Positions 10,917 through 22,970 of a stretch of DNA of 64,000 bases are shown here, piece after piece. A model generated the notes under the pieces. It was not told the DNA's origin, searched no databases, and saw only the letters and a program-made list of their open reading frames with translations. Source of the stretch: Dyella sp. SG609 (lineage in GTDB: Bacteria; Pseudomonadota; Gammaproteobacteria; Xanthomonadales; Rhodanobacteraceae); NCBI RefSeq assembly GCF_012275375.1, contig NZ_JAAZQJ010000006.1:62001-126000 (forward strand). Reading direction: 5' to 3'. A program made the translations under genes and the position numbers. Each line of letters opens with the position of its first letter. Within the stretch, counting starts at the first letter, position 1.

Positions 10917-12062
10917 ATGAGCGAGCAAGTCCTCCCCAAGGCCAAGAAATCCGTCGCCCTGTCGGGCGTGGCCGCGGGCAATACCGCGCTGTGCACGGTT
11001 GGCCGCAGCGGCAACGACCTGCATTACCGCGGCTATGACATCCACGACCTGGCCGCCAAGGGCTGCTTCGAGGAGGTCGCCTATCTGCTGGTGCACGGCG
11101 TGCTGCCGAACTGGGCCGAACTCAACGCCTACCGCGCCAAGCTCAAGCGCCTGCGCGGACTGCCCGCGCCGGTGAAGAGCGCGCTGGAACTGCTGCCGGC
11201 CGCCACCCATCCGATGGACGTGATGCGCACCGGCTGCTCGGTGCTGGGCACCGTGCTGCCGGAGAAGGACGACCACAACCTCACCGGCGCGCGCGACATC
11301 GCCGACCGCCTGATGGCCAGCTTCGGCTCGATGCTGCTGTACTGGTACCACTTCAGCCACAACGGCAAGCGCATCGAGACCGAGACCGACGACGAGTCGA
11401 TCGCCGGCCACTTCCTGCACCTGCTGCACAACAAGAAGCCTAGCGAGCTGCACGCGCACGCGCTGGACAAGTCGCTGGTGCTGTACGCCGAGCACGAGTT
11501 CAACGCGTCCACCTTTACCGCGCGCGTCATCGCCGGCACCGGTTCGGACATGTATTCCGCCATCACCGGCGCGATCGGCGCGCTGCGCGGTCCCAAGCAC
11601 GGCGGCGCCAACGAAGTGGCGATGGAGATCATCGCGCGCTACCGCAACGCGGCCGAGGCGGAAGCCGACATCCGGGCCCGCGTCGAGCGCAAGGAGATCA
11701 TCATCGGCTTCGGCCATCCGGTGTACACCGTGTCCGACCCGCGCAACGAGATCATCAAGGAGGTCTCGCGCAAGCTGTGCACCGAAGGCGGCAACCCGAC
11801 CCTGTTCGAGGTGTCCGAGCGCATCGAGAAGCTGATGTGGGAACTGAAGAAGATGTTCCCCAACCTCGACTGGTTCTCGGCCAGCGCGTACCACATGATG
11901 GGCGTGCCCACCGCGATGTTCACGCCGCTGTTCGTTATCGCGCGCACCTCCGGCTGGAGCGCGCACGTGATCGAGCAGCGCCAGGACGGCAAGATCATCC
12001 GCCCGAGCGCGAACTACACCGGTCCGGAAGACCAGGCTTACGTGCCGATCGAAAAGCGCTGA
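10917..12062 (+). CDS. prpC: 2-methylcitrate synthase
   Basis: This enzyme condenses propionyl-CoA with oxaloacetate to 2-methylcitrate. The 381-residue length is that of the short citrate-synthase subfamily to which PrpC belongs (GltA is about 430). The citrate synthase histidine signature [13 protein letters not shown] is present, as are [11 protein letters not shown] and [12 protein letters not shown] prefer the ATG at 10917 ([10 protein letters not shown]) because AGGAGA lies 8 nt upstream; an in-frame start 7 codons earlier has no such site. It follows prpB and ends at a strong terminator, so prpBC is a bicistronic unit separate from acnD-prpF-prpD. Confidence 0.94.
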
Positions 12063-12088
12063 GCGCAAGCCGTCCGGCACGGAAAGAA

Positions 12089-12112
12089 GGGAGCCCGCGG
12101 GCTCCCTTTTTT
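12089..12112 (+). terminator. Terminator of prpBC
   Basis: GGGAGCCCGCGGGCTCCC forms a perfect palindromic stem followed at once by six T residues. It lies 26 bp after the prpC stop. Confidence 0.93.
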
Positions 12113-12369
12113 GTTTCCGCCGCATGGCATTTCGCATGTTCTTGCGTTTGCGTCAGCATCGTCTGCGGCCGGTGAAGAAGTGGCGGCCTTCCATTCACAC
12201 CGGTTGTACGCGTGCTTCGCAGCAAGGAATCCGCATTCGGTGTCAACTTCCCCGGCCATCTGGACGGCCATACGCGCGGCCTGTCTTCGCACCCGCACGC
12301 CGCGTGCGAAGACGTTGCGCACCACGCCAGGAGGGCGCTATCCCAACCGTCATCAGGAGTGTGCGACCC

Positions 12370-13386
12370 ATGAATAGATTCATCGGAAGAACGCGCCGGA
12401 GCAGGTTCGGCGCATCGTTGATCGCCGTCTTGTCCTTGCTGGCCGTCGCCGTCGGCGCGCAAGCCGCCGAGCAGGCCGCGTTGAAGCCCGACGCGGCCCT
12501 CACCTCGGTGAGCGCGATGGAGCTGCAGCTGCGCCCGCAGGGCGTGCCAAGCAATTTCGTGGTGACACCCAATGGTTATTTCGATCCTGCCTGCGTGCAG
12601 GAAGTGCATGAAGGCGAGGAGCTGCACAAGGACGGCAATATCCGCCGCGTCGACGGTTCGCTGCGCAAGCCCGCGCTGTGCTCGCAGCCGCACTTCGCGC
12701 TGAACGGCACGCGGATCGAGCCGAACGGGGCGGTGAGCTTCCCGGCCGCGCACAACCCGACCATCAACGGCTGGGTGATCGACACCAATTATTCCAGCAG
12801 CGTGGCGATCGGCCGCATCGTGGCCAGCTGGAAGGTGCCGAGCAACCCGACCACCTCGGCCAGCCAGGTGATCTATTTCTTCCCTGGACTCGAGCAGCTG
12901 CCGAACGTGCAGTCGATCCTGCAGCCGGTGCTGGGCTGGAACGGCTACAACGACCACAAGTGGACCATGGCCAGCTGGAACTGCTGCGTCAGCGGCACCA
13001 CGTACCACAGCTCGCCGATCAACGTGTCGGTGGGCGACAGCATCACCGGCGACACCTTTTCCAATTGCGCGCCCGGCGTGACCTGCTCGACCTGGAAGAT
13101 CGTGTCCAAGGACGTGACCAAGGGCACCAGCACCACGCTCACCACCAATCCGTATGCCACGCTGAACTGGGTCTTCGGCGGCGTGCTGGAAGCCTATGGC
13201 GTCAGCAGCTGCAGTCATTACCCGAGCAACGGCTCGATCGCCTTCACCAATATCGCGGTCTATAACCTGAACCAGGTGCAGATCGCCAATCCGCCGTGGA
13301 CCAAGGACTTCCCGGTGGGTTCGACCAGCCCGCAGTGCAACTACGGCATCACCGCCACGGCGTCCAACACCACGCTGGTGTACTGA
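12370..13386 (+). CDS. Secreted beta-rich protein of unknown function
   Basis: This 338-residue protein has a clear Sec signal (MNRFIGRT... to about GAQA). The mature part is rich in Ser, Thr, Asn, Trp and Tyr, with several cysteines (NCCVSG, SNCAPGVTCS, SSCSHYPS), as expected of an extracellular beta-sandwich. Characteristic stretches are VIYFFPGLEQ, ILQPVLGWNGYN, WTMASWNCC and GVLEAYGVSSC. I recall similar unannotated secreted proteins in fungi and soil bacteria, possibly related in fold to glutamic peptidases, but I cannot point to a catalytic pair here. The ATG at 12370 was chosen for AGGAG 10 nt upstream and the signal peptide; an upstream in-frame extension is low-complexity arginine-rich. 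The gene stands alone between two terminators. Confidence 0.7.
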   Translation: MNRFIGRTRRSRFGASLIAVLSLLAVAVGAQAAEQAALKPDAALTSVSAMELQLRPQGVPSNFVVTPNGYFDPACVQEVHEGEELHKDGNIRRVDGSLRKPALCSQPHFALNGTRIEPNGAVSFPAAHNPTINGWVIDTNYSSSVAIGRIVASWKVPSNPTTSASQVIYFFPGLEQLPNVQSILQPVLGWNGYNDHKWTMASWNCCVSGTTYHSSPINVSVGDSITGDTFSNCAPGVTCSTWKIVSKDVTKGTSTTLTTNPYATLNWVFGGVLEAYGVSSCSHYPSNGSIAFTNIAVYNLNQVQIANPPWTKDFPVGSTSPQCNYGITATASNTTLVY

Positions 13387-13396
13387 GCCGACGTGC

Positions 13397-13437
13397 CATC
13401 CGCGGGCGCGCCGGTTGCGGCGCCCGCGGATGTTTTT
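13397..13437 (+). terminator. Terminator of the secreted-protein gene
   Basis: A perfect 13-bp stem CATCCGCGGGCGC / GCGCCCGCGGATG with a 10-nt loop is followed by five T residues. It starts 10 bp after the stop codon. Confidence 0.92.
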
Positions 13438-13824
13438 ATCCGGCAGCGCGAAAAGCGCCGCTTCCTTCGCGCTTCGCGGCGCGTAGATGCTTTGTTGCTG
13501 ACCGGCAGGCACAGGGCGTAACGCCGCTGTTACAGCGTAGCGAAGCGTGGCCTGCACCGAGTGGTGGCGGGCTGCGTCCGCCCTTGTTTTCAGCCCTTTG
13601 GGGCCTGCGCGCGTCTGCGCGGCGTAACACGATTGATGCACTCGGGCCCGCTGCCATTCCCGGCGTTCAGCGGCGCGATCGGTTTCGCGCCATGCAAGTG
13701 CTTGACTGCGCGCAAGGATTTCGCGCGATGCGAAACGGTGGAAGCCAGTGGCATGCATGTTGCCACGTCTGGAAGCCGCGTAGCTCGGCGTACCAGGGGG
13801 CCACTGTTCCGCAGGAGAGAGTCC
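13438..13824. other. Leader region of the Fap-like cluster
   Basis: These 387 bp contain no convincing gene: the open frames are short and arginine-rich. The stretch holds imperfect GCGCG/CGCGC palindromes and a TTGACT hexamer at about 13702 without a good -10 at normal spacing. It should contain the promoter and a long 5' leader for the glycine-rich gene at 13825, but I cannot place them. Confidence 0.35.
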
Positions 13825-14754
13825 ATGCGCAAGACACTCATCGCCACGGCAATTCTGCTTGGCATCGGCTTGACGCTACCCGCCATGGCAGACGACGACA
13901 ATTCGACCAACTCGCACAACAACAGCTCCACTCATACCCGGACCAATTCGAGCCAGGGCAACGACCGCAACAACATGGGCGATGCCAATGCATCGGCAGT
14001 GGGCGCGGCGTCCGCCAACAACGGCGGCACGGCCACTTCGGCGGTCACCAACTCGTTCAATAACAGCAAGGCGGTGGCGGTCAGCCGGCTCGACGGCACG
14101 GTGACCGATATCCAGGTCAGCGGCATCGGCAACGTCGCGCAGAACTGGGGCAATGCCAATGGCGCACGCGGCGGTTCCGGCGGCGATGCCTATGGCGGCT
14201 ACGGCACGGGCGGCGGCGGCGGCTCAGGCGGCAGCGGCGGCAACGCGCATGCGCGCAGCGGCCGCGTCGGCGACAGCTCGGGCACCAGCGGCGGCGCAGC
14301 GGCAGGCGCGGGCGCGTGGGGCGGCGGCAGCGACGGCGACAACTACGGCAACGCCAGCGCGGATGCGCGCCGCAACAGCACCGGCGGCACCTCGACCGGC
14401 GGCAGCGGCGCATGGGCCGGCGGCTCGGCGACGGGCGGCACCTCGACTTCGACCAGCGGCAGCGCCACCGCCACCGGCGGCGCGAGCGGCGCGGCCGATG
14501 CCACCGCGGGTGCGGGCGGCATGGGCGGCGAAGGCGGCGTGGGCACGGGTGGCGGTGCGGCCGGCGGCGCCGGCGGCGCGGGCGCGGCGGGCGGCGCGTC
14601 GTGGGCTACGGCGGGCACCTTCGACATGTCCAACCACATGGAAGGCGCCGCGGCAGCGGCGGCAGGCGTGACCGTGATGGCGCAGAACAGCGGCGTGGCC
14701 GCGCTCACGCAGCAGAGCGTGAACGTGCAGGCCAACCTCAACGTCGGCCATTGA
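13825..14754 (+). CDS. Secreted Gly-rich protein, candidate amyloid-like subunit
   Basis: This 309-residue protein has a Sec signal (to about PAMA, residue 22). An Asn/Ser/Thr-rich segment follows (23-85), then a core with LDGTV (89-93) and GIGNVAQNWGNANG. The middle (about 113-262) is low-complexity Gly/Ala/Ser/Thr. The C-terminal part (263-309) contains AGTF, GAAAAAAGVTVM, QNSG and TQQSVNVQANLN. The LDGTV, AG[ST]F, GAAGV and QN[ST]G...NVQ elements recur in the same order in the 133-residue product of the next gene, so this is that core plus a Gly-rich insertion. The Asn/Gln/Ser/Gly composition and the neighbouring C39 peptidase and barrel gene resemble Pseudomonas Fap operons. Amyloid formation is inferred. 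The start has GCAGGAGAG 6-8 nt upstream. Confidence 0.72.
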   Translation: MRKTLIATAILLGIGLTLPAMADDDNSTNSHNNSSTHTRTNSSQGNDRNNMGDANASAVGAASANNGGTATSAVTNSFNNSKAVAVSRLDGTVTDIQVSGIGNVAQNWGNANGARGGSGGDAYGGYGTGGGGGSGGSGGNAHARSGRVGDSSGTSGGAAAGAGAWGGGSDGDNYGNASADARRNSTGGTSTGGSGAWAGGSATGGTSTSTSGSATATGGASGAADATAGAGGMGGEGGVGTGGGAAGGAGGAGAAGGASWATAGTFDMSNHMEGAAAAAAGVTVMAQNSGVAALTQQSVNVQANLNVGH

Positions 14755-14811
14755 TGTGCAACCGCGTGGCGGGGCCCACGCCCCGCCACGTTCGCGCAAG
14801 GGAGAACCGCC

Positions 14812-15213
14812 ATGAGGAAGATCACAGCTGCATGCGGCGTCGGCATGGCGTGCCTGTCGCTGGGTGCATGGGGGCTGGCGCAGGCGCAAGCGGCGCCCAC
14901 GTATCTGTCCGCCTCGCCCGCATCGGCCTATCGCGCGGCCGCGGCAGCGCATCCCGATGAAGTGAACGGCTTGGGCGCGCGCGTCGACAGCAAGGTGCTC
15001 GCGAGCTTGAGCGGCGGCGCCGACGTCAGCGCGAAAATGACCCTCGACGGCACGGTGAGCAACAACCAGGCCGACGACGTGGTCACCGGCACCAACTCGA
15101 TCAGCGCAGGCTCCTTCCAGGGGGCCGCCGGCGTGCCGATGGTGATCCAGAACACCGGCAACAATGTGCTGATCCAGAACGCCACCATCATCAACGTGCA
15201 GTTCCGGCAGTAG
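14812..15213 (+). CDS. Small secreted protein, paralog of the Gly-rich protein core
   Basis: This 133-residue protein carries a signal peptide (to about AQA, residue 27). The mature part has VLASLSGG (62-69), then LDGTV (78-82), ISAGSF (97-102), GAAGVPM (104-110) and VIQNTGNNVLIQNATIINVQ (111-130). Those elements match the flanks of the Gly-rich insertion in the upstream 309-residue protein and the end of the 170-residue protein downstream. L63, L66 and the GG pair fit the spacing of a double-glycine processing site (L at -7, hydrophobic at -4). The gene lies 57 bp after the previous one and 4 bp before the C39 peptidase gene, with GGGAGA upstream of the ATG. The function is probably a structural or nucleating subunit (inference). 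Confidence 0.72.
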   Translation: MRKITAACGVGMACLSLGAWGLAQAQAAPTYLSASPASAYRAAAAAHPDEVNGLGARVDSKVLASLSGGADVSAKMTLDGTVSNNQADDVVTGTNSISAGSFQGAAGVPMVIQNTGNNVLIQNATIINVQFRQ

Positions 15214-15217
15214 CGCC

Positions 15218-15904
15218 ATGAGGCCATGGCTGCCGGTGCTGCTGCTGTCCGCGCTGTGCTGGCACGGCGCGGCGCCGGCTGCGTCGATCACGGTGCCGGG
15301 CGCGCAGGGGCAGAGCCTCAGCCTCAGGCTCACCAGCCTGAAGGAAGCGCGCTTCCGCAACACCATCCGGCAGAAGTACGACTTCAGCTGCGGCTCGGCG
15401 GCGGTGGCGACGCTGCTTACCTATCAATACGGCTATCCGGTCGACGAGCAAGCTGCGTTCGCGCAGATGTATGCGCACGGCGACCGCGCCAAGATCGGCC
15501 GCGAAGGCTTCTCGCTGCTGGACATCAAGCGCTATCTCGCCGCCAACGGCTTCGATGCCGATGGCTTCGAAGTGCCGCTGGACAAGCTGCAGCAGGAACG
15601 CCTGCCGGCGATCGTGCTGATCGACGAGCGCGGCTATCACCATTTCGTGGTGGTGAAAGGCCTGCTCTACGACCGCGTGCTGATCGGCGACCCCGCGCTG
15701 GGCACGCGCTCGCTGCCGCGCGCGCGCTTCGAGGCGATGTGGAAGAACCGCCTGGTCTTCGTCATCCACAACCGCCGCACGCTGGCGGTCTTCAACAGCC
15801 CGTCCGACTGGCGCGCCGCGCCGCTGGCGCCGCTCGGCACCAGCATCGACCGCCGCGGCCTGGACGGCATCACCCTCCCCAAGCGGGGGCCGGGGGACAT
15901 ATGA
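15218..15904 (+). CDS. Periplasmic C39-family cysteine peptidase (FapD-like)
   Basis: This 228-residue protein has a Sec signal (MRPWLPVLLLSALC... to about PAA) and a papain-like C39 domain without ABC-transporter parts. The catalytic cysteine is C58 in QKYDFSCGSAAVATLL, the histidine is H142 in GYHHFVVVKG and the aspartate is D158 in LIGDPALGT. C39 peptidases usually cut leaders after Gly-Gly. In Pseudomonas the stand-alone periplasmic C39 protein FapD is part of the functional amyloid operon. The gene sits 4 bp after the small paralog gene and overlaps the next gene by ATGA, so it is clearly translationally coupled. Its substrates are likely the neighbouring secreted proteins, two of which contain GG sites. 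Confidence 0.88.
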   Translation: MRPWLPVLLLSALCWHGAAPAASITVPGAQGQSLSLRLTSLKEARFRNTIRQKYDFSCGSAAVATLLTYQYGYPVDEQAAFAQMYAHGDRAKIGREGFSLLDIKRYLAANGFDADGFEVPLDKLQQERLPAIVLIDERGYHHFVVVKGLLYDRVLIGDPALGTRSLPRARFEAMWKNRLVFVIHNRRTLAVFNSPSDWRAAPLAPLGTSIDRRGLDGITLPKRGPGDI

Positions 15905-16413
15905 GCACGCGCACGTATCGCGCCGGCCTGGGGCTGGCGCTGCTGGTCGCGACGGCGCTGGCGGCGCCGCGCGCTTACGCGGACGAGCAGGCCGTTGCGC
16001 AGTGGACGCCGGTAAGCGAGGCGCGCCTCGATGCGGCGCGCGGCGGCTTCGATCTCGGCACGGGCCTGGTGGCGTCGCTGGGGCTGGACCGCGTGGTGTA
16101 CGTCGACGGCAACCTGGTCGCGTCCACCCATATCCAGATTCCCGACGTCGCGCATCTCACGCCGGCGCAGGCCAGCGCGCTATCGGCAGCCATCAATACG
16201 GCCGCGGTGGTGCAGGTGGGGCCTGGCAACGCGGTCGATCCGGCTGCGCTCGGCCAGAACGCCGCGACCACCGTGGTGCAGAACACGCTCGACAACCAGC
16301 GCATCGCGGCGATGACCACGCTCAATGTTTCGGTGAACACGCTCGGCGCGTTCCGCAGTCTGAATCTGGGGCAGAGCCTGCAGTCGGCTTTGAGCAACCC
16401 GCTCGGCCGCTGA
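15901..16413 (+). CDS. Secreted small protein with double-glycine-like site
   Basis: This 170-residue protein has a signal peptide ending about residue 27 (PRAYA). A short segment SEARLDAARGGF (39-50) follows, with Gly48-Gly49 preceded by Leu at -7 and Ala at -4. The rest is beta-prone, and VVQNTLDNQRIAAMTTLNV (125-143) aligns with VIQNTGNNVLIQNATIINV of the 133-residue protein. The start codon overlaps the C39 peptidase stop (ATGA), so the two are coupled. By position and type it could be the FapE-like exported component of the cluster, but sequence similarity to FapE is not something I can show. The GG site would release a 22-residue propeptide after Sec cleavage (inference). Confidence 0.7.
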   Translation: MSTRTYRAGLGLALLVATALAAPRAYADEQAVAQWTPVSEARLDAARGGFDLGTGLVASLGLDRVVYVDGNLVASTHIQIPDVAHLTPAQASALSAAINTAAVVQVGPGNAVDPAALGQNAATTVVQNTLDNQRIAAMTTLNVSVNTLGAFRSLNLGQSLQSALSNPLGR

Positions 16414-16429
16414 GCATGAAGCCCCTCTC

Positions 16430-16570
16430 CCGTCGGCGACCCGAAGGTAGTCCCTGTGGGAGAGAGGGGTTGGGGTGAGGGTACGGCCGGAGTGGTGCGT
16501 TGCGCTCCGCCCGGACCCTCATCCGGCTGCCGCCACCTTCTCCCGGAGGGAGAAGGGTTTGCCTTGGGGA
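16430..16570. repeat. Intergenic palindromic repeats before the barrel gene
   Basis: The stretch contains CCCCTCTCCC ... GGGAGAGAGGGGTTGGGGTGAGGG and CCTTCTCCC GGA GGGAGAAGG (16536-16556), with the linking words CTCATCCGGCTGCCGCCACC. It belongs to the same dispersed family as copies near 31, 55107 and 61020. It separates the first four cluster genes from the barrel gene and could fold in a read-through transcript, but it has no T-tract. Confidence 0.6.
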
Positions 16571-16612
16571 GTGAGAGAAGAAAGTGCCAATCAAGGAACC
16601 GGGGAGAGGGTG

Positions 16613-17965
16613 ATGATCGGGAATCGTGGGGTAAGGCATAGCGTCGCCGCAGCCGTGGGCTTGGCGCTCATGGCCAGCACAGTCGCCGCGCAGCAAGCGC
16701 CCGCAGTGGAATCCGATGAACTGCACCAGCAGGTGAAAGCGCAAGGCGAGCGCCTGAATGCCATGCGCAGCCAGATCGCCGCGCAGATGGAACAGCTGGA
16801 AACCATGAGGCGCACGCTCGCCGCGCAGGAAGCCCAATACCGCGAGCTGCGCCAGGCAGTGGGCCTGGATGTGCTGGACCGTCAGCGTGCCGGCAATATC
16901 CGCGCGGCCGGCAGTTCGGCCACGGCCTTGCCGATGCCGGCCGATGCGGTGGCCGCTGCGGGCCCGGAAGACACGCAGCCCGTCGGCCAGGCGCCGCAGC
17001 GCGACTCGCGCCCGCCCGAAGTGGCGCCGATCTTCGACCAGCCCGGCGTGCTGACGCCGCCCGGCAAGCTGATCGTCGAACCCTCGTACCAGTTCGGTTA
17101 TTCCTCGGCGGACCGCGTGGCGCTGGTGGGCTACACCATCATTCCGGCGATCCTGATCGGCCTGGTCGACGTGCGCCAGGTGAAGACCACCACGCAGACC
17201 GGCGCGATCGCGCTGCGCTACGGCATCACCAACCGGATGGAAGCGGAGGTGCGCATTCCCTTCGTGCATGGGCACACCGACACCATCAGCCGCGAGATTT
17301 TCACCGGCAGCGCCACCGACCGCGCCTTCGGCGCCAGCGGCAGCGGCCTGGGCGACATCGAGGCGACGCTGCGCTACCAGCTCAACGACGGCGGCGCCGA
17401 CAAGGCTTATTACGTGGCCTGGCTGCGCGCGAAATCGCGCACCGGCCGCGATCCGTTCGAGGTCACCACCGACTGCGTGCAGCGCTGCGTGCAGAACGCC
17501 ACCGGCACCGGCCTGCCATTGCAATTGCCTACCGGCAGCGGCTTCTACTCGCTGCAGCCGGGCGTGACCTGGCTGTATCCGTCCGACCCGGTGGTGTTCT
17601 TCGGCAACGTCAGCTACCTGCACAACTTCGCGCGCAACAACGTCAGCCGCACCCTGGTGCTGGCGGGCAAGGAGAACCTCGGCAAGATCCAGGTCGGCGA
17701 CGTGGCCGACGTCAGCGTGGGCATGGGCCTGGCGCTCAACGAGAAGGCCTCCTTCAGCATCGGCTACGACCAGAGCTGGGTAGGCGTGACCAAGCAGAAC
17801 AACCGTCGGGTGGCCGGTTCGGTGAAGACGGTGCTGGGCACCTTGCTGATCGGCGGCTCGTACCGCTTCAGCGACAAGCGCACGCTCAACTTCACCCTGG
17901 GCGTGGGCGTGACGCGCGATACGCCGGACGCGACGGTGACGGTGCGGGTGCCGATGATGTATTGA
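16613..17965 (+). CDS. Outer-membrane beta-barrel with N-terminal coiled coil (FapF-like)
   Basis: This 450-residue protein has a signal peptide to about VAAQ (27). A coiled coil follows (about 35-82, heptads LHQQVKAQGERLNAMRSQ and onward), then a Pro/Ala linker (95-140). The long C-terminal part has amphipathic strands typical of an outer-membrane barrel, ending in VTVTVRVPMMY with a terminal aromatic residue. The order coiled coil, linker, barrel is that of FapF, the secretion pore of Pseudomonas functional amyloid. The database name acetate kinase is sometimes misapplied to such proteins; no kinase motif is present. I chose the ATG at 16613 (GGGGAGAGGG just upstream), since upstream in-frame sequence is the palindromic repeat. 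It is likely the exporter for the cluster products (inference). Confidence 0.75.
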   Translation: MIGNRGVRHSVAAAVGLALMASTVAAQQAPAVESDELHQQVKAQGERLNAMRSQIAAQMEQLETMRRTLAAQEAQYRELRQAVGLDVLDRQRAGNIRAAGSSATALPMPADAVAAAGPEDTQPVGQAPQRDSRPPEVAPIFDQPGVLTPPGKLIVEPSYQFGYSSADRVALVGYTIIPAILIGLVDVRQVKTTTQTGAIALRYGITNRMEAEVRIPFVHGHTDTISREIFTGSATDRAFGASGSGLGDIEATLRYQLNDGGADKAYYVAWLRAKSRTGRDPFEVTTDCVQRCVQNATGTGLPLQLPTGSGFYSLQPGVTWLYPSDPVVFFGNVSYLHNFARNNVSRTLVLAGKENLGKIQVGDVADVSVGMGLALNEKASFSIGYDQSWVGVTKQNNRRVAGSVKTVLGTLLIGGSYRFSDKRTLNFTLGVGVTRDTPDATVTVRVPMMY

Positions 17966-17990
17966 GCGCGCCGCGGCGGTGCTACAAGTT

Positions 17991-18123
17991 CGTCATTCCG
18001 GCGCAGGCCGGAATCCAGTAGCGGCAACATTCGGTTGTCGTGTCGCCGCTCAAGCGATGCTTGTGGCGTAGTCGCTCAAGCCAGCGCCGTCGTCACTGGA
18101 TTCCGGCCTGCGCCGGAATGACG
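17991..18123. repeat. Inverted pair of 29-bp intergenic repeats
   Basis: The element spanning 17991-18019 (CGTCATTCCGGCGCAGGCCG and onward) recurs as its exact reverse complement at 18095-18123. Each copy also contains an internal palindrome (TTCCGGC..GCCGGAA). Related copies lie at 54772 and 55590. Placed between the convergent barrel and terC genes, it may serve as a bidirectional transcription stop. Confidence 0.8.
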
Positions 18124-18166
18124 GGGTTTGGAGTGGGCGGCACACCCGTGGCCGCCCGTTTTCGAC

Positions 18167-18844
18167 TCACGCAAGCTTCGCGCGCCGCTTCTGCACATAC
18201 CACCCGCCGCCGCACACCGCGGCCACCAGCAGCACGTCCAGCGCGTAGCGCGCCCAGCCGTGCGCATCGAACCAGTCGTGCAGCAGGTGGTCGTGCGCGA
18301 TCATGCGCGCGGCGGTCCAGGCGATCGCGCCGGCGCCGATGTAGACGATGACGGGGAAGCGTTCGATCAGCTTCAGGATCAGGGTGGAGCCCCACACCAC
18401 CAGCGGCACGCTGATGGCCAGGCCGATGATCACCAGCACCATGTGGCCGCCGGAGGCGCCGGCGATCGCCAGCACGTTGTCCAGGCCCATCAGTGCGTCG
18501 GCCACCACGATGGTGCGGATCGCCGTCCAGAATCCCGCCGCGGCGCTCACCTGGTGTCCGTCGCCCTCGTCCGAGCGCAGCAGCTTCCAGGCGATGGGCA
18601 GCAGCAGCAGGCCGCCGACCAGCATCAGGCCGGGCAGCTTGAGCAGGTAGACCACCACGGCGGTCAGCGCCACGCGCACCGCCACCGCGCCGAAGCTGCC
18701 CCAGAACACCGCCTTCTTCTGCAGCTGCTTGGGCAGGTTGCGCGCGGCCATGGCGATGACGATGGCGTTATCGCCCGCCAGCACGAGGTCGAGCAGGACG
18801 ATGGCCAGCAGGCCGGAGAAGAATTCGGGGGTGAGGAAATCCAT
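18167..18844 (-). CDS. TerC/Alx-family membrane protein, probable Mn2+ exporter
   Basis: This 225-residue integral membrane protein of the TerC/YjbE/Alx family has about seven hydrophobic helices. The family motifs are the acidic pair in LDLVLAGDNAIVIAMA (about 19-34) and its inverted repeat ADALMGLDNVLAIAGA, where the aspartates are thought to bind the metal. Recent work on this family (Alx, MntP-associated TerC proteins) supports manganese efflux. That fits the yybP-ykoY manganese riboswitch directly upstream in its 5' leader, so expression should rise with Mn2+. The gene is transcribed away from acnD and is convergent with the barrel gene. Confidence 0.9.
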   Translation of the reverse strand: MDFLTPEFFSGLLAIVLLDLVLAGDNAIVIAMAARNLPKQLQKKAVFWGSFGAVAVRVALTAVVVYLLKLPGLMLVGGLLLLPIAWKLLRSDEGDGHQVSAAAGFWTAIRTIVVADALMGLDNVLAIAGASGGHMVLVIIGLAISVPLVVWGSTLILKLIERFPVIVYIGAGAIAWTAARMIAHDHLLHDWFDAHGWARYALDVLLVAAVCGGGWYVQKRRAKLA

Positions 18845-18907
18845 GGCGGTTCATGTTCCTGCGCGCGGGACGAATGCAGCAACCACGAGCGCACGCAGCC
18901 TCGTGAT

Positions 18908-19026
18908 TACCGCAAAAGTCTCGTTCCCGGCAGAACCGCTGCAGTGACCGGGGCGGTGCTCCGCCCGTGATGACGACCACTGCACGGACGCGCGCTGCGG
19001 CGCGTCCGGAACTACTCCCCTTTGGG
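18908..19026 (-). promoter_or_regulatory. yybP-ykoY (Mn2+) riboswitch upstream of terC
   Basis: The minus-strand leader of terC contains the two conserved words of the yybP-ykoY aptamer in the right order. CCAAAGGGGAGTAG is at its 5' side (19011-19025) and CGAGACTTTTGCGG at its 3' side (18910-18923), about 90 nt apart. CAAA and TTTTG can close P1, and GCAGTG / CACTGC can pair in between. Known members bind Mn2+ and switch on exporters, which matches the TerC gene 64 bp downstream. Confidence 0.88.
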
Positions 19027-19039
19027 ATTAGTGCCCGCC

Positions 19040-19069
19040 ATTGTCGGTGGCGCCGTGCATACCAGTCAA
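19040..19069 (-). promoter_or_regulatory. Sigma-70 promoter of the Mn riboswitch-terC transcript
   Basis: On the minus strand TTGACT (19064-19069) is followed after 18 bp by GACAAT (19040-19045). This places the start of transcription a few bases upstream of the riboswitch 5' edge. Confidence 0.6.
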
Positions 19070-19079
19070 GCCAACACCC

Positions 19080-19108
19080 TTAAGCAAAAGGCTTTCCCTC
19101 GCTACAAT
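19080..19108 (+). promoter_or_regulatory. Candidate promoter of acnD-prpF-prpD
   Basis: TACAAT (19103-19108) is a near-consensus -10 box. A weak -35 (TTAAGC, 19080-19085) lies 17 bp upstream. It is back to back with the terC promoter and about 75 bp before the acnD start. Confidence 0.5.
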
Positions 19109-19188
19109 GTGGCGGTTTTGCATCGACGCGAGCGGCCGCCGCCCGGCGGACGCGGGCCGGGCAATCTCTTCCTGGGTTCTCGACACAT

Positions 19189-21783
19189 ATGAATAGCGAC
19201 TACCGCAAACCCCTTCCCGGCACCTCGCTGGATTACTTCGATGCGCGCGCCGCCGTGGAGGCGCTGCAGCCGGGCGCCTACGACACGCTGCCGTACACCT
19301 CGCGCGTGCTGGCCGAGAACCTGGTGCGCCGCTGCGATCCGGCGATCCTGGCCGATTCGCTGCGGCAGCTGATCGAGCGCAAGCGCGAGCGCGACTTCCC
19401 GTGGTTCCCGGCGCGCGTGGTCTGCCACGACATCCTCGGCCAGACCGCCCTGGTCGACCTCGCCGGCCTGCGCGATGCGATCGCCGAGCGCGGTGGCGAT
19501 CCGGCCAAGGTCAATCCGGTGGTGCCGGTGCAGCTGATCGTCGATCACTCGCTGGCGGTGGAATGCGGCGGCTTCGATCCGCAGGCCTTTGCCAAGAACC
19601 GCGCGATCGAGGATCGCCGCAACGAGGACCGCTTCCACTTCATCGAGTGGACCAAGAAGGCGTTCGAGAACGTCGACGTGATTCCGCCGGGCAACGGCAT
19701 CATGCACCAGATCAATCTGGAGAAGATGTCGCCGGTGATCCAGGTGCAGGAGGGAGTGGCTTACCCCGACACCTGCGTCGGCACCGACAGCCACACGCCG
19801 CACGTGGACGCACTGGGCGTGATCGCCATCGGCGTGGGCGGCCTGGAAGCAGAGAACGTGATGCTCGGCCGCGCCTCGTGGATGCGCCTGCCGGACATCG
19901 TCGGCGTGGAACTGACCGGCAAGCGCCAGCCCGGCATCACCGCCACCGACATCGTGCTGGCGCTGACGGAATTCCTGCGCAAGGAGAAAGTGGTCGGCGC
20001 CTACCTGGAATTCCGCGGCGAAGGCGCGGCCAGCCTGACGCTGGGCGATCGCGCCACCATCTCCAACATGGCGCCCGAATACGGCGCCACCGCCGCGATG
20101 TTCTTTATCGACGGCCAGACCCTCGACTACCTGCGCCTGACCGGCCGCAGCGACGAGCAGGTCAAGCTGGTGGAAACCTATGCCAAGGCCGCCGGGCTGT
20201 GGGCCGATACGCTGGCCGCCGCGCAGTACGAACGCACGCTGAGCTTCGATCTGTCCTCGGTGGTGCGCAACATGGCGGGCCCGTCCAACCCGCACAAGCG
20301 CCTGCCGACGGCCGATCTCGCCGCGCGCGGCATCGCCGGCGAGTGGCAGGAACAGCCGGGCCAGATGCCCGATGGCGCGGTGATCATCGCGGCCATCACC
20401 AGCTGCACCAACACCAGCAATCCGCGCAACGTGATCGCCGCGGCGCTGCTCGCGCGCAATGCCAATGCGCGCGGCCTTACCCGCAAGCCGTGGGTGAAGA
20501 GTTCGCTGGCGCCCGGTTCCAAGGCGGTGGAGCTGTACCTGAAGGAAGCGAACCTGCTGCCGGAACTGGAACAGCTCGGCTTCGGCATCGTGGCCTTCGC
20601 CTGTACCACCTGCAACGGCATGTCCGGTGCGTTGGATCCGAAGATCCAGCAGGAAATCATCGAGCGCGACCTGTACGCCACCGCGGTGCTTTCCGGCAAC
20701 CGCAACTTCGATGGCCGCATTCATCCGTACGCCAAGCAGGCTTTCCTCGCTTCGCCGCCGCTGGTGGTGGCGTACGCCATTGCCGGCACTATCCGCTTCG
20801 ATATCGAGAAGGACGTGCTCGGCGTCGACGCCAACGGCCAGCCGGTGCTGCTCAAGGACATCTGGCCCAGCGACGAGGAGATCGATGCGATCGTGTCCTC
20901 CAGCGTGAAGCCGGAACAGTTCCGCAAAGTCTACGAGCCGATGTTCGCGCGCAGCGGCCAGGGCGGCACCACGGCCGCGCCGCTGTACGACTGGCGCGCG
21001 CAGAGTACGTATATCCGCCGTCCGCCGTACTGGGAGGGCGCCCTGGCCGGCGAGCGCACGCTCAAGGGCATGCGCGCGCTGGCGGTGCTGGGCGACAACA
21101 TCACCACCGACCATCTGTCGCCGTCCAACGCGATCCTGCTGGACAGCGCCGCGGGCGAATACCTCGCGAAGATGGGCCTGCCGGAAGAAGACTTCAATTC
21201 CTACGCCACCCACCGCGGCGACCACCTCACCGCGCAGCGCGCCACCTTCGCCAATCCCACCTTGCTCAACGAGATGGCGGTGGTCGACGGCGCGGTGAAG
21301 AAGGGCTCGCTCGCGCGCGTGGAGCCGGAAGGCAAGGTCATGCGCATGTGGGAAGCGATCGAGACGTATATGCAACGCAAGCAGCCGCTGATCGTGATCG
21401 CCGGCGCCGACTACGGCCAGGGTTCGTCGCGCGACTGGGCTGCCAAAGGCGTGCGTCTGGCCGGCGTGGAAGCGATCGCGGCGGAAGGCTTCGAGCGCAT
21501 CCATCGCACCAACCTGATCGGCATGGGCGTGCTGCCGCTGGAGTTCAAGCCCGGCACCGACCGCAAGACCCTGGGCATCGACGGCAGCGAAACCTTCGAC
21601 GTGATCGGCGCGCGCACGCCGCGTGCGGAACTTACGCTGGTGATCCACCGCCGCAACGGCGAACGCGTCGACGTGCTGGTGACCTGCCGCCTCGACACCG
21701 CCGAAGAAGTGTCGATCTACGAAGCGGGCGGCGTGCTGCAGCGTTTCGCGCAGGACTTCCTCGAAGCTTCGCAGGCGGCATGA
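19189..21783 (+). CDS. acnD: Fe/S-dependent 2-methylcitrate dehydratase AcnD
   Basis: This 864-residue aconitase-family enzyme dehydrates 2-methylcitrate to 2-methyl-trans-aconitate, which PrpF then isomerises. The 4Fe-4S ligands are C406 (TSCTNTSNPRN) and C472/C475 (ACTTCNGMSG). GTDSHTPHVDALG and the C-terminal swivel-domain motif YGQGSSRDWAAKG are also present. The length is short of AcnA (about 890) and typical of AcnD. The adjacent prpF is the signature partner that distinguishes AcnD from housekeeping aconitase. The stop overlaps the prpF start (ATGA). No strong Shine-Dalgarno precedes the ATG at 19189. Confidence 0.94.
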   Translation: MNSDYRKPLPGTSLDYFDARAAVEALQPGAYDTLPYTSRVLAENLVRRCDPAILADSLRQLIERKRERDFPWFPARVVCHDILGQTALVDLAGLRDAIAERGGDPAKVNPVVPVQLIVDHSLAVECGGFDPQAFAKNRAIEDRRNEDRFHFIEWTKKAFENVDVIPPGNGIMHQINLEKMSPVIQVQEGVAYPDTCVGTDSHTPHVDALGVIAIGVGGLEAENVMLGRASWMRLPDIVGVELTGKRQPGITATDIVLALTEFLRKEKVVGAYLEFRGEGAASLTLGDRATISNMAPEYGATAAMFFIDGQTLDYLRLTGRSDEQVKLVETYAKAAGLWADTLAAAQYERTLSFDLSSVVRNMAGPSNPHKRLPTADLAARGIAGEWQEQPGQMPDGAVIIAAITSCTNTSNPRNVIAAALLARNANARGLTRKPWVKSSLAPGSKAVELYLKEANLLPELEQLGFGIVAFACTTCNGMSGALDPKIQQEIIERDLYATAVLSGNRNFDGRIHPYAKQAFLASPPLVVAYAIAGTIRFDIEKDVLGVDANGQPVLLKDIWPSDEEIDAIVSSSVKPEQFRKVYEPMFARSGQGGTTAAPLYDWRAQSTYIRRPPYWEGALAGERTLKGMRALAVLGDNITTDHLSPSNAILLDSAAGEYLAKMGLPEEDFNSYATHRGDHLTAQRATFANPTLLNEMAVVDGAVKKGSLARVEPEGKVMRMWEAIETYMQRKQPLIVIAGADYGQGSSRDWAAKGVRLAGVEAIAAEGFERIHRTNLIGMGVLPLEFKPGTDRKTLGIDGSETFDVIGARTPRAELTLVIHRRNGERVDVLVTCRLDTAEEVSIYEAGGVLQRFAQDFLEASQAA

Positions 21784-22970
21784 CCATGGCCCACGCTCCC
21801 CAGCTGCGCATTCCCGCCACGTATCTGCGTGGCGGCACCAGCAAAGGCGTGTTCTTCCGCCTGCAGGACCTGCCCGAAGCCGCGCAGGTGCCCGGCGCCG
21901 CGCGCGATGCGCTGCTGCAGCGGGTGATCGGCAGCCCCGACCCGTACGGCAAGCAGATCGACGGCATGGGCGGCGCCACCTCCAGCACCAGCAAGACGGT
22001 GATCGTGTCGCGCAGCACGCGCGCCGACCATGACGTGGACTACCTGTTCGGCCAGGTGGCGATCGACCAGGCCTTCGTCGACTGGAGCGGCAACTGCGGC
22101 AACCTGTCGGCGGCGGTCGGTCCGTTCGCTATCGCGGGCGGCCTGGTCGACCCCGCACGTGTGCCGCGCGACGGCGTGGCCGTGGTGCGCATCTGGCAGG
22201 CCAATATCGGCAAGACGATCATTGCCCACGTGCCGATGACCGGCGGCGCGGTGCAGGAAACCGGCGATTTCGAACTCGACGGCGTGACGTTCCCGGCGGC
22301 GGAAGTACAGCTGGAATTCATGGATCCGGCCGCGGACGAAGAGGGCGCGGGCGGGGCGATGTTCCCCACTGGCCACGTGGTGGACGACCTGGATGTGCCG
22401 GGCGTCGGCACGCTCAAGGCGACCATGATCAATGCCGGCATCCCCACCATCTTTGTCGAGGCCGCGGCGATCGGCTACACCGGCACCGAGCTGCAGGACG
22501 CGATCAACGGCGATCCGAAGGCGCTGGCGATGTTCGAGACCATCCGCGCGCATGGCGCGTTGCGCATGGGGTTGATCGGTTCGCTGGAGGAGATCGCCAC
22601 GCGCCAGCACACGCCGAAGGTGGCGTTCGTCGCCGCGCCGGCGGACTACGTCGCTTCCAGCGGCAAGGCGGTGAAGGCGGGCGACATCGATCTGCTGGTG
22701 CGCGCCATGTCGATGGGCAAGCTGCACCACGCCATGATGGGTACGGCGGCGGTGGCGATCGGCACGGCGGCGGCGATTCCCGGCACCCTGGTCAACATGG
22801 CGGCCGGCGGCGGCGAGCGCTATGCGGTGCGCTTCGGCCATCCCTCGGGAACGCTGCGGGTCGGTGCCGAAGCGGCGCAGGTCGGCGGTGCGTGGACGGT
22901 GACCAAGGCGGTGATGAGCCGCAGCGCGCGCGTGCTGATGGAAGGCTGGGTGCGCCTGCCTGCAGTCTGA
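21780..22970 (+). CDS. prpF: 2-methylaconitate cis-trans isomerase PrpF
   Basis: This 396-residue enzyme has two diaminopimelate-epimerase-like halves. It converts 2-methyl-trans-aconitate, the product of AcnD, to the cis form that aconitase can rehydrate. Typical segments are IPATYLRGGTSKGVFFR at the start, NCGNLSAAVGPFAI around the first half active site, and MGKLHHAMMGTAAVA late in the second. The ATG lies within the acnD stop (ATGA overlap), showing translational coupling. The second in-frame ATG (MAHAPQ) two codons later is also possible. It is followed 83 bp later by prpD. Confidence 0.94.
   Translation: MTMAHAPQLRIPATYLRGGTSKGVFFRLQDLPEAAQVPGAARDALLQRVIGSPDPYGKQIDGMGGATSSTSKTVIVSRSTRADHDVDYLFGQVAIDQAFVDWSGNCGNLSAAVGPFAIAGGLVDPARVPRDGVAVVRIWQANIGKTIIAHVPMTGGAVQETGDFELDGVTFPAAEVQLEFMDPAADEEGAGGAMFPTGHVVDDLDVPGVGTLKATMINAGIPTIFVEAAAIGYTGTELQDAINGDPKALAMFETIRAHGALRMGLIGSLEEIATRQHTPKVAFVAAPADYVASSGKAVKAGDIDLLVRAMSMGKLHHAMMGTAAVAIGTAAAIPGTLVNMAAGGGERYAVRFGHPSGTLRVGAEAAQVGGAWTVTKAVMSRSARVLMEGWVRLPAV

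Follow-up and report, generated by a model that had tools for sequence, protein, structure and literature searches.

A Fap-related export operon of Dyella and its relatives with double-glycine leaders on two proposed substrates of its own C39 peptidase

What does the C39 peptidase of a Fap-like operon cut, and is such an operon a Fap system at all? Both questions are raised by a locus at positions 13825-17965 of a 64-kb window of Dyella sp. SG609, the window being the whole stretch of DNA that was analysed. A preliminary description of this locus had noted three small secreted proteins of 309, 133 and 170 residues (here A, B and D), encoded with a C39 peptidase and a coiled-coil/beta-barrel protein; its genes and coordinates are correct and the motifs it quoted are present in the sequences. 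We find five consecutive + strand genes in the order A, B, C39, D and barrel and, absent from that earlier reading, double-glycine leaders on B and D. The system is related to Fap yet is not Fap, and it would work like Fap: specifically, we consider it quite probable, on the sequence features described here, that this is a two-step export operon whose leader-tagged cargo is processed by its own C39 peptidase.

The five genes are a conserved operon. We assembled loci from named relatives, the best 80 of at least 553 confirmed candidates, found through C39; A-B-C39-D stand in this order in 80 of 80, and a barrel gene lies near the operon in 79, on the same strand in 66 and close by on the opposite strand in 13. 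No barrel was found in locus L130, whose upstream side is a contig end. The record titles name Dyella, Rhodanobacter, Luteibacter, Pseudoxanthomonas, Lysobacter, Luteimonas, Ralstonia, Polaromonas, Variovorax and Paraburkholderia, among others; the gene set is present in Cupriavidus metallidurans too, and the closest named relative by C39 among the matches listed is Dyella marensis (93%). A census of 81 genomes, comprising the window's own (5.1 Mb, labelled G000) and 80 relatives, gave a C39 match at E <= 0.001 in 38. These include 24 genomes at >=62% identity, the window's own among them, and 14 at 37-46%, with both kinds together in four (G007, G012, G045 and G049), and a further four whose matches are all weak. 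The B model matches 24/81 genomes, exactly those with the window-type C39 clade, and the D model at E < 1e-20 picks out the identical set. Homologs that commonly lack the C39 and barrel genes, which would have refuted the earlier reading, were not seen, the barrel being present in 79/80 loci found through C39; in one genome (G004) a second B-model match is its D gene. Two loci stand apart as observations of their own: the full gene set also occurs on a contig titled Candidatus Eremiobacteraeota (L117), perhaps a misplaced contig (binning error) or a transfer, and Paraburkholderia gardini (L166) has two tandem A-type matches.

The leader consensus of ABC exporters is Leu at -7 with Gly-Gly at -2 and -1, and both B and D carry a leader of this kind. 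B (14812-15213, + strand; 133 aa, exported) consists of a Sec-like signal (by eye), a spacer, the leader VDSKVLASLSGG (14983-15018, + strand; residues 58-69) and a short mature part, with C39 cutting predicted after residue 69. D (15901-16413, + strand; 170 aa, exported) has its leader VSEARLDAARGG at residues 38-49 (16012-16047, + strand), with the cut predicted after residue 49. The D consensus, PVSxxxLxxxRGG, is placed behind the Sec signal, and its GG ends at residues 39-84 in all but three long rows, as numbered from start codons chosen by a rule of our analysis. Both L(-7) and GG are found in 81/81 D sequences; in B, L(-7) is found in 81/81 and G(-2) without exception, the pair being GG in 80 and GA in one, so that L at -7 with GG or GA at -2,-1, the mark of C39 double-glycine cargo, is present throughout both families (81/81 each). 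Among distinct contexts, D has V(-12) in 65/80, S(-11) in 53/80, R(-3) in 79/80 and F or Y(+1) in 76/80, and B has V(-12) in 55/75 and S or R(-3) in 67/75. In the AlphaFold2 (AF2) model of B the sole helix is the leader (60-66), and it falls where the model is most confident (block means 78 and 72). A scoring matrix trained solely on D leaders, with the 99% shuffle limit as its threshold, recovers 68/81 B proteins and none of the C39 (0/81) or A (0/75) proteins; applied to the Fap loci described below, it recovers 9 of 13 FapE proteins taken by gene position and no FapC (0/13), FapB (0/12), FapA (0/9) or FapF (0/13).

These counts bear on whether the GG motif is a peptidase site at all. The cut at GG is a prediction and the mature N termini of B and D are putative, and the motif might instead be a structural turn or another conserved surface of these proteins. 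We regard this as very unlikely, given that L(-7) and GG are invariant while the N-terminal regions around them vary, that a matrix built from D picks up B, FapE and some of the barrels as well, yet no A, FapB, FapC, FapA or C39, and that similar leaders, identified by eye, lie beside other lone C39 genes.

A candidate enzyme for such a site is encoded between the two cargo genes. The C39 gene (15218-15904, + strand), whose reading frame overlaps that of D by 4 bases, specifies a protein with a Sec-like signal and a Pfam Peptidase_C39 domain (E 8.6e-20) that matches the solved double-glycine protease of PDB 6mpz (E 7.5e-7). Cys58, His142 and Asp158, which we take to be the catalytic residues, are invariant in eight aligned rows and align with the Cys, His and Asp of 6mpz. 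The window's genome holds no second C39 at E <= 0.001, in a search that did find C39 domains in the long frames of other genomes. We propose B, D and perhaps the barrel as substrates of the operon's own C39 peptidase.

Is the operon, then, a Fap operon? The Fap order of subunits-C39-E-barrel is matched by A, B, C39, D and barrel, and the C39 and the coiled-coil/barrel protein, named in the preliminary description as the two Fap partners, are homologous to FapD and FapF. The C39 matches the NCBIfam FapD model NF058616 (E 8e-40; 136.5 bits, below the curated cut-off of 330), and the barrel (16613-17965, + strand), a FapF-like outer-membrane protein with an N-terminal coiled coil (by eye and by weak Pfam coiled-coil matches), matches the FapF model NF058560 (E 3.7e-43; 147.9 bits, below the curated cut-off of 700), its residues 130-448 matching FapF crystal structures (PDB 5o67, E 1.7e-27). 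Both also match models of the Fil system far below those models' cut-offs, the C39 FilB (E 3e-35) and the barrel FilC (E 9e-10). For comparison, we took as true Fap the loci of the second C39 kind (37-46% identity) with Fap gene order. In two of these loci, L063 and L065, five proteins have matches to the NCBIfam models of FapA, FapB, FapC, FapD and FapE, all below curated cut-offs, and the L063 peptidase likewise falls under the cut-off of 330 with 253.8 bits; because the true-Fap proteins tested also score in this way, scores below the cut-offs are no argument against Fap.

One could read the locus as nothing other than a Fap operon (fapB/C, D, E, F) that has diverged. Besides the gene order and the FapD and FapF matches, this reading can draw on the D model, which has four extra weak matches in the census, three of them to the gene beside FapD (G046, E 7e-6; G029, 2e-5; G010, 8e-4) and spanning D positions 4-63, that is, the signal, the leader and the first mature residues; the fourth (G057) looks like chance. 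A tree of 58 C39 sequences (the non-C39 rows fap_L069 and o_L062p6313 and the short row s1_L170 left out) also sets the two kinds side by side among the C39 sampled, with weak support (80/52). The same tree, however, resolves the window's system as a clade of its own (24 rows, 99/99) and Fap as another (18 rows, 100/99), and the two systems are co-resident in 4 of 24 genomes. Furthermore, the FapA, FapB and FapC models have no match in the window's genome, whereas all four Fap-bearing relatives used as a control match (G035, G049, G060 and G069), and in G049, where the two systems coexist, the matches are confined to the Fap locus. FapA is, according to the accessible part of PMC3792158, often absent from Fap systems. 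We accordingly judge a divergent Fap operon unlikely, and, because the FapB/FapC feature was looked for and not found, we do not class the system as Fap.

If it is not Fap, what are its subunits? A, B and D match no NCBIfam Fap subunit model at E <= 1, D in particular has no match to the FapE model (nor has any other protein of the window's genome), and a Pfam scan of the three gave no match worth naming; the earlier suggestion that the system is related to Fap but has subunits of its own family is supported. A and B were also considered as FapB/FapC repeat proteins and rejected: profile comparison gives B 7% and 4% against the two, A 8% against FapB, and A 58% against FapC in the signal peptide only, against 98% for the FapB-FapC control. 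The three proteins had been described as homologous to one another, which holds in part. Single-sequence BLASTP gives E 0.014 for A-B, 0.03 for B-D and 2.9 for A-D. In profile-profile comparisons with 81 rows per family, the window copy included, A and B match over 33 columns at the C terminus (98.4% probability, E 4.6e-15), and B and D with 93% (E 3.5e-7) when the leader is included, falling to 30% for the mature parts without it (61% for a narrower C-terminal cut). The A-D comparison is not significant (5%), and homology of A and D is not supported. As controls, FapE-FapB gives 43%, and comparisons with C39 or the barrel give 0.1-4%, except A-barrel at 12%, located in the signal peptide. A and B are thus related through their C termini, and the B-D resemblance lies mainly in the common N-terminal leader.

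A (13825-14754, + strand; 309 aa, exported) has an N/S-rich N-terminal part, a Gly-rich middle and the 33-residue C-terminal segment that it has in common with B. The insertion noted earlier is real, with 168 residues in the window copy and a median of 175 (range 127-340) in the 75 of 81 rows measured, five fragments and one gapped row being left out. The picture of a small core and a Gly-rich paralogue stands for the C-terminal segment; the LDGTV element, which occurs in both proteins, can be lined up in register between them without reaching significance (8.8%). Across loci A is ~300-500 aa long and rich in Gly, Ala, Ser, Asn and Thr, and B carries Asn/Gln motifs. Structure prediction of the cores, also proposed earlier, gave a modest alpha/beta domain for the mature part of D (AF2 mean pLDDT 67) and no confident structure for that of B (mean pLDDT 57). 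An exported-subunit family of soil Xanthomonadales and Burkholderiales is hereby defined, which was not found in the literature searched; in that search, of titles and the starts of abstracts with most subscription journals outside its coverage, there was also no report of double-glycine leaders in Fap-like amyloid operons of Xanthomonadales.

D occupies the FapE position, and its leader is of the FapE type. Profiles of D and FapE match in the leader region with 75% over 29 columns, roughly half of the FapE rows in this profile having been selected through the motif. In FapE taken by gene position the motif [LM]..[ML]RGR[FYW] stands at the leader place in 13/13, preceded mostly by [LIV][STP]D. 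Twelve further distinct FapE agree, some with Lys at -1; these come from loci L171-L186 and were extracted by the motif pattern (15/16, L174 with an internal stop in the match being left out and three repeating the first set), and as such are not independent proof. The FapE site of Aeromonas caviae reads ELADGELAHLRGRY. The FapE model exceeds its curated cut-off in 0/369 genomes, and Pseudomonas FapE is thus not among the sequences compared. In the six of the 13 position-taken FapE whose peak positions were listed, the two lowest included, the matrix peaks at the leader place. These 13 full-length proteins are the valid set; because the scan skips the first 22 residues, the result for 28 trimmed FapE rows (1/28 over the limit) is an artefact.

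A related but degenerate site recurs in the barrel. L-x3-R[GA] stands directly behind the coiled coil in 74 of 80 barrels, as RGG in 24, RAG in 23, RG followed by another residue in 14 and RAR in 13 (the last by eye, among 19 'other'), and 25/80 exceed the matrix limit. In the window the site is VGLDVLDRQRAG (16859-16894, + strand; residues 83-94), of the RAG type. Two true Fap lineages have linkers in FapF with PTDRELGHLRGK (G341) and VPDSELERLAGR (G219). Both are G[RK] sites, like those of FapE in these lineages, which suggests that the cut residue co-varies between FapE and FapF there; in the other FapF compared, a FapE-type site is absent or unclear. Among individual loci, L173/L204 and L172/L200 have true FapF linkers with the FapE-type leader (HLRGK and RLAGR). 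The leader-like site in the barrel and FapF is the weaker part of our case.

The literature on FapD can be read alongside these sites. In the accessible part of Rouse et al. (PMC5557850), the catalytic Cys of FapD is needed for amyloid secretion and its target is described as unclear; Fap proteins are said to lack canonical C39 sites, though GG or GA motifs occur in FapE and FapF, and FapE, alone among them, gave no peptides from its first ~70 residues. These peptide data cannot place a cut at G[RK], because trypsin itself cuts after Arg and Lys. The FapF linker sites agree with the suggestion in that part of the paper that FapD may cut FapF, and a 2025 review (PMC12822426, likewise in part) has FapD thought to process FapE and FapF. 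We propose FapE as a substrate of FapD, on the strength of its conserved leader. More broadly, and with a confidence that stops a little short of even, we suggest a single leader code for lone periplasmic C39 peptidases: Sec cargo with an LSxxxLxxMxG[x] helix following the signal peptide would be cut ahead of a FapF-like pore, the code appearing in Fap as LSDxELxxMRG[RK] on FapE and, in two lineages, on the FapF linker, with FapE and FapF as the FapD substrates and a co-varying P1 residue (mostly GG here, G[RK] in Fap).

For the Dyella operon itself, the following sequence of events would account for these features. All five proteins, each with a signal-peptide-like N terminus (by eye), would cross the inner membrane via Sec. 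The periplasmic C39 would bind the short leader (V-S/D-x3-L-x3-[RS]) and cut after Gly-Gly, so that B and D would be released in mature form, without leader or spacer. A similar, degenerate site directly behind the coiled coil of the barrel suggests that the peptidase may also cut the barrel or dock on it at that point, and this could govern when the pore opens. A, B and D would then pass through the barrel to the cell surface, where they would assemble, presumably into fibres. A, large and Gly-rich, is the likely main exported subunit and would be the main polymer, B a small partner with A's C-terminal segment, and D the FapE counterpart.

Several observations weigh against this scheme. A has no leader by the matrix, from which it follows that cutting is not required for all cargo; A and B match neither FapB nor FapC, mature D compared with the FapE profile is not significant (4.5%), and a Foldseek search of the D model against the PDB gave no match at E <= 0.001. 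Confidence is low for the modelled leader helix of D (40-46), with block means of 53-54. In alphaproteobacterial and in distant gammaproteobacterial members the leader is retained, with the B site reading GK, GR or GM; their D site is GG where seen. As for the barrels, six of 80 lack L-x3-R[GA] after the coiled coil, 55/80 fall below the matrix limit, and the window's own site scores 2.3, under its 99% shuffle limit of 6.0.

A further question is what kind of cargo is exported. Other lone C39 genes adjoin exported-looking proteins with leaders of this sort, recognised visually or through a loose pattern, with no control: LSDQEMKNTEGA (L194), LSEAEMLETQGE (L195), LSDADMDGVTAG (L193) and, on an Acinetobacter plasmid, LELSRQEMKDTQGA (L207). 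A leader candidate was not found in 4 of 16 lone-C39 loci (L189, L191, L192 and L199), L191 having a TGQ variant. Several of these neighbours (L193, L194, L195-L198 and L207) are short exported-looking proteins with LSxxEMxxTxG-type leaders, some of which resemble bacteriocins by eye; in a single genome (G125), seven C39 matches occur. Such short cargo beside C39 relatives, together with the same kind of machinery of C39, FapF-like pore and GG-motif cargo in the accessible part of PMC11798529, would fit an operon whose cargo is not fibre subunits but peptides with a bacteriocin-like or signalling role, the function suggested for the Nap island of Neisseria. The size and composition of A, the Asn/Gln motifs of B and the resemblance of D to FapE at the leader tell against it, and we hold peptide export to be rather improbable here; export of leader-tagged subunits remains our preferred reading.

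The surroundings of the operon can be described briefly. D and the barrel are separated by 199 bases (16414-16612), which contain GC-rich inverted repeats resembling REP elements (by eye). Upstream of A, at 12370-13386, lies a gene for a 338-aa secreted-looking protein with no Pfam or NCBIfam match; the same gene stands beside the operon in two closely related Dyella genomes at least (L034 and L035), and the upstream neighbour of the operon is kept in several relatives. The flanks (window 10917-22970) hold a citrate-synthase-like gene on one side and an aconitase-like gene on the other, presumably a 2-methylcitrate cluster, and a TerC-like gene on the opposite strand.

Among known systems, Fap (fapABCDEF, the functional biofilm-amyloid system of Pseudomonas and others) is like the Dyella system in gene order, in its homologous C39 and FapF barrel and in the D/FapE leader region, and differs in its separate C39 clade, in its FapA/B/C subunits, whose models are without a match in the window's genome, and in the cut site, GG in the Dyella system vs G[RK] in FapE, with B also bearing a leader in the Dyella system. 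FapE was previously suspected as a FapD substrate, and its conserved leader now names a site: a related, widespread system with textbook double-glycine leaders, aligned with an altered site in FapE, ties the question of the FapD target to a named residue, and its leader-tagged cargo suggests what the Fap peptidase itself cuts. The double-glycine peptidases of ABC exporters (PCAT/AMS, e.g. PDB 6mpz) share the C39 family, the aligned Cys/His/Asp and the L(-7) and GG(-2,-1) leader; the Dyella C39, in contrast, is a free enzyme with a signal peptide and no ABC transporter part, and a Sec-like signal precedes the cargo leader. Acinetobacter Fil, likened here by C39 and barrel alone, has FilB and FilC models that match these two with scores far under the cut-offs. 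The Neisseria Nap island (NapP C39, NapF FapF-like, Nap peptides) likewise combines a C39, a FapF-like pore and GG-motif cargo, which, in the model of its authors as given in the accessible part of the 2025 paper (PMC11798529), is cut in the periplasm; its cargo differs in being small cationic peptides linked to autolysis, and it is likened here by description and not by sequence comparison. The principle of a lone C39, a pore and leader-tagged cargo therefore has a published precedent in that island, as far as the accessible text goes, and fapD-fapF pairs are already known from five further phyla (PMC6173800, in part). Fap, Nap and the other lone-C39 loci may possibly follow one export logic.

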